A stretch of 64,000 nt of DNA, taken from contig DXAA01000007.1 in assembly GCA_019117285.1 (NCBI GenBank), forward strand, positions 1 to 64,000. Reading direction: 5' to 3'. This document shows, one piece after another, positions 1 through 29,821 of the stretch. The stretch is from Candidatus Limosilactobacillus intestinigallinarum (GTDB lineage: Bacteria; Bacillota; Bacilli; Lactobacillales; Lactobacillaceae). The notes under the pieces are model-generated. The model ran no database searches. It worked only from the letters and a program-made list of their open reading frames with translations, and was not told the origin of the DNA. How positions within the stretch are numbered: position 1 is the stretch's first letter; each line of letters starts with the position of its first letter. The position numbers were made by a program, and so were the translations under genes.

Positions 1-333
1 ACAACCTTAGTTAAGCAGTACGACCTAATTATCATTGAAGATTTGAAAGCCAAGAATCTCCAGAAAAATCATTGCTTGGCTAAGGCGATTGCGAATGCCA
101 GCTGGTATCAGTTTCGGACCATGTTGGCATATAAGTGTGCCTGGTATGGTAAAAAATTAGTAGTTGTCAAACCGAATTATACTAGTCAGATTTGTAGCCA
201 CTGTGGTTACCATAGTGGACCAAAGCCGTTACAAATTCGTGAATGGACGTGCCCAAGTTGTGGTACCCATCACGACCGGGATATTAATGCGGCAGTTAAT
301 ATCCTGCAGCAAGGATTAAAAGCCGTGGGCTAG
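1..333 (+). CDS. tnpB: TnpB (IS200/IS605 OrfB) RNA-guided nuclease/transposase accessory protein, 3' part
   Basis: The reading frame is open from the first base, so the gene begins upstream of the window. The visible 110 residues start in the RuvC-II strand ([11 protein letters not shown], with the catalytic Glu). They continue through a four-cysteine zinc finger (CSHC...CPSC) and end with RuvC-III ([10 protein letters not shown], catalytic Asp). This order is typical of OrfB/TnpB proteins of IS200/IS605-family elements, which act as RNA-guided DNA nucleases that help the element persist. The second copy at 15596-16768 is nearly identical but carries an amber stop; here the matching codon is TGG (Trp). 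No tnpA transposase is visible in the window. The gene is followed directly by a conserved, folded right end. Confidence 0.93.
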
Positions 334-452
334 GGACTAGCCATGGTAAAAGAGTGGGGTTCCGTAAGTTAGGTGTCCTGAATACAGGTGTAACATCCTA
401 AATACTACCCCATGTTCCCAGAAGCTCGGTCATTGATGGCCGAGTAGTTCAC
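334..452 (+). ncRNA. TnpB right-end RNA (omega/reRNA) and element right end, copy 1
   Basis: These 119 nt after the tnpB stop match the tail of the second copy (16769-16887) with only six differences. They fold into nested stems: 355-360 with 407-412, 369-373 with 397-401, and 377-380 with 385-388. A separate 8-bp hairpin follows at 425-432/437-444. Two of the stems differ between copies by compensatory changes. Similarity stops exactly after TTCAC at 452, so the element end is placed there. By the known arrangement of TnpB systems, the next 16-20 nt (accaacggattagtaa...) would serve as guide. The RNA probably starts inside the tnpB 3' end; its 5' limit is not visible. Confidence 0.75.
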
Positions 453-480
453 ACCAACGGATTAGTAAGGATATGATAGG

Positions 481-15401: not shown

Positions 15402-15434
15402 AAAAGGAATTCGGCTTGCCGGATTCCTTTTTTT
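15402..15434 (+). terminator. Intrinsic terminator of tuf
   Basis: AAAGGAATTCGGC and GCCGGATTCCTTT pair with one wobble and a 2-nt loop core, followed by a T tract. Confidence 0.9.
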
Positions 15435-15484
15435 AATTGGGCAAGGAAACACGTTTTTTTAAGAACGTGATGAATTGCCCAATT
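15435..15484. repeat. Unexplained 50-bp imperfect palindrome after tuf
   Basis: Perfect 10-bp outer arms (AATTGGGCAA 15435-15444, TTGCCCAATT 15475-15484) enclose a second stem (CACGTT 15450-15455, AACGTG 15464-15469). It follows the tuf terminator directly and precedes the TnpB element. It could be a left-end structure of the element or a native hairpin. Confidence 0.75.
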
Positions 15485-15518
15485 TCTGAACTTTTAGTCG
15501 AACACATGTTTCACAATA

Positions 15519-15527
15519 TGATATAAT
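15519..15527 (+). promoter_or_regulatory. Extended -10 promoter for tnpB copy 2
   Basis: TGATATAAT fits the TGnTATAAT extended -10 pattern, 70 nt upstream of the start. No good -35 hexamer is seen, which is acceptable for extended -10 promoters. Confidence 0.55.
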
Positions 15528-15595
15528 ATGCTTAACAAAAGGATTAGTGTTGAGATATTAACTAACTTTGTTGACTAACCGATGATGAAGGAATA

Positions 15596-16768
15596 GTGGT
15601 GAAGATGGCACAAATTATAAAGGGTGTTAAACTCCGCTTATATCCCAACGCTCAGCAAAGGGAACAATTGTGGCAGATGTTTGGCAACGATCGCTTTGTT
15701 TGGAACCAGATGTTGGCGATGGCCAAAGAACGGTATCACAACAATCCCAGCAGTCATTTTGTCAATGGATACGGCATGAACTACCTACTAAAAAGACTCA
15801 AGCAGGAATATCCATTCCTTAAAGCTAGTGACGCAACTAGTTTTCTCGTGGTTAATCACAACCTCGCCCAAGCTTTTAAGATGTTATTCAGGCATCAGGG
15901 TGGTTACCCACGTTTTAAATTGCGTCGTGCTATTCGGCAGGCTTACACGGGGCGGTCAGTTTGTCGGGTACTTGCTAAGCGGCGGGTCAGATTGCCAAAG
16001 CTAGGGAGCATCCGGACCAGTAAGACGACCCGGTTAGCTAGTGGCAAAATTAAGTGCTATACAGTTAGCCTTGCGCCAACTGGACGCTACTATTTGTCAT
16101 TACAAATGGCAGTTGAGGCTCCTAAACACTTAAGCAAGACGGGAAAAGCGGTCGGCATTGATGTGGGGATTACCGATATAGCCATTAGTTCTGATGGTAT
16201 TAAGTACGGGAACTTTAATGCTAAATGGGCGGAGAAACAAGCAACAAAGTGGCAAAGTAAGTATGCCAAACGGAAACATCAAGCGATGGTTGTCGTTCGT
16301 CAATGGAACCATAACCATAAAACGGTGAAGAAAGAATTGAGCGACTATCGGAATTGGCAACGAGCGCGACAACAAAAGGCTCGCTACCAGGCCAAGATAG
16401 CGAACCAACGAAAAGATTATTTGCATAAATTAACGACGGCCTTAGTTAAGCAGTACGACCTAATCGTCATTGAAGATTTGAAAGCCAAAAATCTGCAGAA
16501 AAATCATTGCTTAGCTAAGTCGATCGCGAATGCCAGCTAGTATCAATTCCGGACCATGTTGGCATATAAGTGTGCCTGGTACGGTAAACGCTTAGTGGTA
16601 GTTAATTCAAACTATACTAGTCAGATTTGTAGTCACTGTGGGTACCATAGTGGGCCAAAGCCGTTACAAGTTCGTGAATGGACGTGTCCAAGTTGTGGTA
16701 CCCATCACGACCAGGATATTAATGCGGCAGTTAATATCCTGCATCAAGGATTAAAGACCATTGGCTAG
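15596..16768 (+). pseudogene. tnpB: tnpB (IS200/IS605 OrfB), interrupted by an amber stop
   Basis: The frame runs from a GTG (AAGGA site just upstream) for 314 codons. It is then cut by TAG at 16538-16540, where copy 1 has TGG (Trp). It continues in the same frame to 16768, so the full product would be 390 residues. Visible parts are an N-terminal helix-turn-helix region (VKLRLYPNAQQREQLW), RuvC-I (VGIDVGITDIAISSD), RuvC-II ([10 protein letters not shown]), the zinc finger (CSHC...CPSC) and RuvC-III ([10 protein letters not shown]). The catalytic Asp/Glu/Asp positions are kept, but all parts after RuvC-II lie beyond the stop. A truncated product would lack the zinc finger and RuvC-III and should not cut DNA. 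No tnpA is next to it. A restart at 16556 would give only the last 70 residues. Confidence 0.9.
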
Positions 16769-16887
16769 GGACTAGCCATGGTAAAAGAGTGGCGTTCTGT
16801 AAGTTGGGTATCCTGAATACAGGTGTAACATCCCAAATACTACGCCATGTTCCCAGAAGCTCGGTCATTGATGGCCGAGTAGTTCAC
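16769..16887 (+). ncRNA. TnpB right-end RNA (omega/reRNA) and element right end, copy 2
   Basis: The 119-nt tail matches copy 1 except at six bases. The stems 16790-16795/16842-16847 and 16804-16808/16832-16836 each carry a swapped base pair relative to copy 1 (G-C to C-G and A-T to G-C), keeping the fold. The terminal hairpin and the TTCAC end at 16887 are unchanged. The following bases (gctttaaaaacccgat) would form the guide. The RNA is intact although its tnpB is broken. Confidence 0.75.
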
Positions 16888-16910
16888 GCTTTAAAAACCC
16901 GATAAAAAGC

Positions 16911-29732: not shown

Positions 29733-29821
29733 GGAGAGTTGGCAGAGTGGTAATGCACCGGACTCGAAATCCGGCGAACCCGTGTTGAGCGGGCGCGCAG
29801 GTTCAAATCCTGTACTCTCCT
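29733..29821 (+). tRNA. tRNA-Ser(CGA)
   Basis: The acceptor stem GGAGAGT/ACTCTCC, a D arm, the anticodon stem CCGGA/TCCGG with loop CTCGAAA (anticodon CGA at 29765-29767), a long variable arm and GGTTCAAATCC T arm give a class II tRNA reading UCG. CCA is not encoded, so the trailer must be cut (RNase Z) and CCA added. The base after the acceptor stem is T, whereas G is usual in serine tRNAs. Confidence 0.95.

Follow-up and report, generated by a model that had tools for sequence, protein, structure and literature searches.

Genes and element boundaries in the window

The window (the whole 64,000-nt stretch of DNA analyzed here, from an incomplete assembly of 1.22 Mb and 66.87% completeness) carries two tnpB copies, each followed by a 119-nt tail (334–452 and 16769–16887) that ends at the right end of a mobile element (Table 1). 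Both are of the TnpB type by Pfam and NCBIfam. The first-pass annotation had listed them as two tnpB genes, a description that holds for their identity and less so for their state, as only the last 110 codons of copy 1 are present and copy 2, although complete in length, is interrupted by an in-frame TAG. Among the 12 copies in the same genome with enough upstream sequence, eight have an open tnpB frame of at least 390 codons, and all eight retain the RuvC motifs; the OrfB_IS605 and TNB domains, the RuvC D/E/D residues and the zinc motif were likewise found in 8/12. One full-length copy (L002) aligned with residues 10–391 of the 391 residues of ISDra2 TnpB (E = 4.5e-57). The left flank of L002 (G000:C14:38751-41869) resembles the copy 1 empty site described below (GGCGAACCATTTTT) and its right flank differs, which points to two copies having been joined during assembly or rearranged with one another; this representative TnpB may therefore be a composite. 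Identity among the 12 copies was 95.7% in the scaffold, 85.7% in tnpB and 71.8% at tnpB third codon positions.

Table 1. Positions of the element features within the window
Feature	Position	Strand	Evidence or remark
tnpB copy 1, last 110 codons	1..333	+	Cut by contig start; stop TAG 331-333; Cas12f1-like_TNB E 1.4e-30
Putative omega-RNA stem 1, GGCUAG/CUAGCC, loop GGA	328..342	+	57/66 pairs in 11 distinct rows
GGA loop of stem 1, candidate pseudoknot strand for TTC 448-450	334..336	+	Pairing possible in 19/19 rows; ISDra2 layout
Stem 2 5' strand TGG, pairs with 418-420 CCA	344..346	+	Invariant in 41 distinct A1 rows
Stem 3a 5' strand, pairs with 407-413, includes 358 (partner 409)	354..360	+	Tree-null double changes 0/500
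Stem 3 continuation GTA, pairs with 403-405 TAC	364..366	+	Invariant in A1
Stem 3 middle TTAGG, pairs with 397-401 CCTAA, includes 371 (partner 399)	369..373	+	Double changes 14/500
Inner hairpin CCTG, pairs with 385-388 CAGG, loop AATA	377..380	+	Double changes 1/500
Terminal hairpin (stem 4/right-end DNA hairpin for TnpA)	425..444	+	Near-same hairpin in a tnpA+tnpB element
Element right end TTCAC	448..452	+	TTCAC in 52/63, TTCAT in 9/63 copies
Predicted 16-nt guide of copy 1 (flanking DNA)	453..468	+	G010 empty site TTTTT followed by ACCAACAGATTAGTAAG
Intrinsic terminator; T-run is copy 2 insertion site (predicted TAM)	15402..15433	+	
tnpB-only IS200/IS605-type element, copy 2	15434..16887	+	
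Left-end hairpin CACGTT..AACGTG	15450..15469	+	
tnpB copy 2, pseudogene	15596..16768	+	In-frame TAG 16538-16540; HDRD changed to HDQD
Stem 1 of copy 2	16763..16777	+	
Putative omega-RNA scaffold of copy 2, two swapped base pairs	16769..16887	+	
Predicted 16-nt guide of copy 2	16888..16903	+	First 10 nt match G010 empty site GCTTTAAAAA

The element has the traits of the IS200/IS605 group: each end has a subterminal hairpin, insertions follow a fixed motif and the target is not duplicated. No tnpA-sized frame was found in the copy 2 element, which, like the copies of its length in the same genome, has space for tnpB only. A Y1 transposase gene is present elsewhere in this genome, accompanied by a different TnpB (456 aa). 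This locus (L150, G000:C12:66400-69400) thus holds tnpA and a TnpB of another type; its terminal hairpin is nearly the same as that of the window copies, and the sequence before the hairpin looks different by eye. In plasmid records of L. reuteri and L. fermentum, tnpA immediately precedes either the scaffold (L170) or tnpB (L171). Since copy 2 has no tnpA of its own and a Y1 transposase with a near-same terminal hairpin occurs elsewhere in the genome, copy 2 was likely mobilized by TnpA acting in trans.

Covariation of the right-end fold

A direct comparison of the two tails reproduced all six base differences that had been reported between them, given here as copy 1/copy 2: G/C at 358/16793, C/T at 363/16798, A/G at 371/16806, G/A at 375/16810, T/C at 399/16834 and C/G at 409/16844. 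Four of these do make up two swapped base pairs, 358 with 409 and 371 with 399; position 363 is unpaired in the minimum-energy folds of both copies, and position 375 falls in the variable segment that separates the middle stem from the inner one. The minimum free energy was −39.5 kcal/mol for copy 1 and −38.4 kcal/mol for copy 2, and 0/200 and 4/200 dinucleotide shuffles, respectively, folded as well. The tails fold much as the first-pass annotation had described, except that the structured unit begins near position 328, inside tnpB, rather than at 334, and that stem 1 and the pseudoknot (see below) were absent from the earlier description.

Copies of the element were collected by DNA and covariance-model searches. 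The 119-nt sequence has 17 DNA matches in its own genome (14 covering nearly all of it), DNA matches occurred in 17/56 genomes, and covariance model R1 matched 22/50 genomes of Limosilactobacillus. Alignment A1 comprises 44 copies from 13 genomes (14 from the same genome and 30 from 12 others), and alignment A2 comprises 55 rows, with L029, L039 and L055 of A1 not included. Tree tests were carried out on 50 distinct rows, after L162, L163 and three duplicates were dropped from A2, against 500 alignments simulated on a FastTree tree with the number of changes per column kept, a null weakened by the fact that this tree derives from the RNA alignment under test. Counts under the tree null include stem 1 and the pseudoknot; the terminal hairpin, whose A1 alignment is faulty between the TTCAC and TTCAT subfamilies (83.8% paired), was omitted from the helix tests.

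Under a structure that included the terminal hairpin and an outer stem, GGACTA/TAGTTC, 95.1% of cells in A1 were paired (33%–47% in slid controls), and 67 cells were changed on both sides compared with 21.1 ± 4.1 after shuffling, although the number of pairs in A1 showing any double change (eight) was not above that of the shuffles (170/500). The outer stem showed zero double changes in A1, and the combination of stem 1 and the pseudoknot, which also uses its GGA/TTC part, was preferred over it; minimum-energy folding partly favors the outer stem, with GGACU/AGUUC competing with stem 1.

With the tree null, overall pairing was 99.0% versus 91.6 ± 1.8% in the simulations (0/500), and 76 cells showed double changes versus 12.9 ± 6.8 (0/500). 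The signal was strongest in stem 3a (45 double-change cells versus 5.6 ± 5.4, 0/500) and the inner hairpin (29 versus 7.1 ± 4.5, 1/500), and smaller in the middle stem that includes 371/399 (2 versus 0.2, 14/500; pairing 42/500). The two swapped pairs thus carry different weight as evidence. The pair 358/409 is significant alone, being the only one with E ≤ 0.05 among all column pairs (G-test, 200 tree simulations; six of the top nine pairs lie within the structure), whereas 371/399 is weaker, with about one change per side on the tree and 46 A-U, 2 G-C and 2 G-U rows among the 50 (the G-U rows, L010 and L013, look like intermediates). That only one pair is significant alone, and that 371/399 reflects about one event, speaks for the swaps being chance or inherited subfamily differences that arose without selection on structure. 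The excess of double changes in stem 3a and the inner hairpin, seen even when the null retains the tree, makes this explanation hardly credible. Gathering copies across the genus, building a covariance model and testing for covariation, as had been proposed, therefore supports the fold and the claim of selection on RNA structure: the fold is maintained by covariation among related copies. It runs from the last bases of tnpB as far as the right boundary of the transposon, with one poorly fitting row (L162).

Compensation was lacking, an outcome named beforehand as one that would count against the proposal, only at single pairs and in a minority of copies. For example, 358/409 is mispaired in 4/50 rows (C-C in L004 and L013, T-T in L010 and G-G in L018), of which the first three are among the 14 rows from the same genome and L018 is from a relative; the three rows from the same genome come from copies with an open tnpB. 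Two rows outside the tree tests behaved differently from each other. L162, which has a short insertion and is possibly misaligned or degenerate, has broken pairs at 3/7 positions of stem 3a, 2/3 of stem 2 and 2/3 of 364–366/403–405, and L163 keeps 7/7 stem 3a pairs, adds a further double change at 366/403 (G-C in place of A-U) and disagrees with the fold only at stem 1. Stem 2 did not vary in 41 distinct A1 rows and is thus without covariation support, and 364–366/403–405 is invariant in A1. The same 20-nt inner hairpin is missing from scaffolds of two different genomes (L014:322-420 and L037:1501-1599), suggesting that it is dispensable.

Stem 1 and the tnpB stop codon

The scaffold begins inside tnpB, where GGCUAG, consisting of the last Gly codon and the stop codon, can pair with CUAGCC around a GGA loop. 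At the predicted register, 57/66 stem 1 pairs can form, compared with 18–37/66 when the strands are slid (11 distinct sequences from 19 matches). This is a fair test, as rows were placed by R1, which does not model stem 1, and, unlike those of a first count, were not chosen for pairing. Stem 1 variants include GGUUCG/CGAACC, GGCCUG/CGGGCC, AGGUUG/CAACCU and GGACUG/CAGUCC; L162 (4/6), L163 (2/6) and L167 (4/6) fit poorly. All 41 copies counted end tnpB with GGC or GGT followed by TAG, although GGA/GGG accounted for 163/417 Gly codons across 21 open frames (including L062, which is not tnpB). In 19/19 rows, all three loop bases could pair with the terminal TTC or the equivalent bases if G-U is allowed; these positions are mostly invariant. 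Since the pseudoknot and stem 2 are nearly invariant, covariation does not test either.

A second TnpB group (L103-L111, L121), mostly from Levilactobacillus, may show a compensated pseudoknot change. CAACC hairpin loops, potential partners of a right end that reads GGTTGAC, occur in 10/11 GTGGTTGAC-ended loci of this group (L117 being the exception), a result of a loose automatic loop search that took unrelated hairpins at several other loci.

The right end of such an element might also fold as single-stranded DNA for the Y1 transposase TnpA, the structure then not being one of RNA. TnpA-bound right-end hairpins are known for IS200/IS605 elements, the element of this genome with tnpA and the different 456-aa TnpB has almost the same terminal hairpin and TTCAC, and 15/18 short BLAST matches to the right end cover only position 413 onward. 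However, the terminal hairpin travels with sequence unlike the scaffold, indicating that TnpA needs no stem 3 in its present form (other element ends that share the terminal hairpin include some weak covariance-model matches). Moreover, + strand cells of the 50 distinct rows contained 140 G-U and 7 A-C combinations, or 52 and 5 when the pseudoknot (47 G-U) and 354/413 (41 G-U, 2 A-C) are left out, and this excess of G-U favors a structure in the + strand; a stem 1 that spans the tnpB stop codon also fits RNA. A purely DNA-level role for the whole structure is hence very unlikely. It is likely that the terminal hairpin has both RNA and transposition roles, and the G-U excess, together with short matches that mostly start at 413, indicates that the covarying stems serve the RNA.

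Predicted guide position and target sites

Most copies end in TTCAC or TTCAT (Table 1), and the 16 nt beyond the right end were distinct in all 62 copies that have them, which fits a guide. These flanking nucleotides occupy the position of a guide, the 16-nt length being borrowed from ISDra2. A structure placed directly behind the tnpB stop codon could alternatively be an mRNA 3' element, stabilizing or terminating the tnpB transcript without any guide function. This is highly improbable, as the window copies have no T-run after the terminal hairpin, the hairpin is followed by the element end and then by distinct flanks, and the layout matches that of ISDra2.

A relative (G010) has empty sites for both window copies. 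At that of copy 2, the T-run of a terminator, TTTTTT, is followed by GCTTTAAAAA, which equals the first 10 nt of the copy 2 right flank before the sequences diverge. The gene upstream of this terminator is presumably an elongation-factor gene. The left side of copy 1 is missing from the contig, and its empty site in G010 reads CCATTTTT directly followed by ACCAACAGATTAG; the TTTTT that precedes the copy 1 guide match in G010 is the motif predicted from copy 2. The copy 1 site is diverged in more distant relatives. Elsewhere the T-rich motif fits less exactly at L006 (TTTTTAT in the filled versus TTTTTCT in the empty site), the relatives of L003 are too diverged for the motif to be read, and the L012 empty site had no match in seven genomes. 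A T-run of at least four was present at or within 3 nt of the left junction at 19/20 left ends. By geometry only, then, the putative guide is flank-derived and the presumed TAM equals the left-flank motif, which predicts a T-rich TAM (TTTTT).

Terminator-like sequences were found at 11/20 left flanks, compared with 21/91 T-runs in the window (P = 0.006), which indicates only a modest general preference for terminators during insertion; the copy 1 empty site is not terminator-like by eye. If the insertion motif is a T-run, it might follow that many elements lie directly behind intrinsic terminators.

Comparison with known TnpB systems and putative function

In ISDra2 (PMC10097598), the scaffold is 116 nt long and comprises stems 1, 2 and 3 (stem 3b being disordered in the structure) and a pseudoknot of −5U to −3C with −103A to −105G, located between the strands of stem 1. 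The right-end RNA described here resembles that of ISDra2 (PMC10097598, PMC8612924) in its position behind tnpB, length (about 125 nt), a stem 1 loop that may pair with the terminal UUC, stem 2 near −35, stems 3 and 4, and a predicted guide from the flank. It differs in that the stem 1 loop has only 3 nt and the tnpB stop codon lies inside stem 1, in the TAM (TTGAT in ISDra2, probably T-rich here) and in gene content (tnpA and tnpB in ISDra2, tnpB only in copy 2). AmaTnpB also has a comparable scaffold (106 nt, processed by TnpB) and a 3' stem-loop no more than 10 nt from the guide, and only this 3' stem-loop was conserved in structure across 11 typical TnpBs in the same study (Nety et al. 2023, PMC10278001), whereas the inner stems are conserved with covariation here, within one related element group. 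IS607 TnpB with its RAGATH-18-derived reRNA (PMC11061315) is likewise RNA-guided with an RNA behind the gene, but belongs to another transposon family, and the scaffold here has no Rfam match above gathering. Rfam searches over the scaffold yielded nothing meaningful, at gathering thresholds or at E 5; the only match above gathering in the window was a tRNA at 29733–29821, and there was none in seven related loci. Among the matches listed from open-access titles and abstract openings, no description of a Limosilactobacillus scaffold RNA was found.

The proposal of a right-end guide scaffold is supported by covariation, the adjoining TnpB, an end at the element boundary and flank-derived sequence at the place of the guide. 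We estimate a probability of about 0.92 that the region is a TnpB guide RNA scaffold (omega-RNA or reRNA) of an IS200/IS605-type element in Limosilactobacillus, and its assignment to the ISDra2 type is well supported. By analogy with ISDra2, transcription, processing, TnpB binding, cleavage and a role in element retention can be predicted. Transcription of tnpB would continue past the right end of the element, and TnpB would bind the RNA stretch that reaches from the last tnpB codons (stem 1, including the stop codon) to TTCAC; the ~16 nt of flank that follow would serve as the guide. The stem 1 loop would pair with the terminal TTC to form the pseudoknot, and stems 2, 3 and 4 would complete the scaffold. 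The complex may then recognize a T-rich motif with a guide match directly after it, that is, the empty site left by excision, and cleavage of this site would lead to repair that restores the element.

The analysis yields a model, backed by covariation, for a probable TnpB guide RNA that occurs in 22 of the 50 Limosilactobacillus genomes searched. The inclusion of the tnpB stop codon in the scaffold, along with a predicted T-rich target motif, should be useful for interpreting IS200/IS605 elements, and such a model also helps in the selection of compact nucleases.

A more tentative idea is that copies with broken tnpB act as trans-acting guides for the TnpB of intact copies, forming one shared guide set. 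We consider this possible, though doubtful; if true, the shared set would be aimed at T-rich sites, often transcription terminators. In its favor, no mispair in the tested stems was present in 8/10 copies with a shortened tnpB frame, compared with 14/20 with an open frame, and copy 2, with its broken tnpB, retains both compensated pairs. Intact scaffolds beside broken tnpB genes could also mean that the gene losses are simply recent, and two of the ten shortened frames (L006 and L034) still have at least 350 codons.
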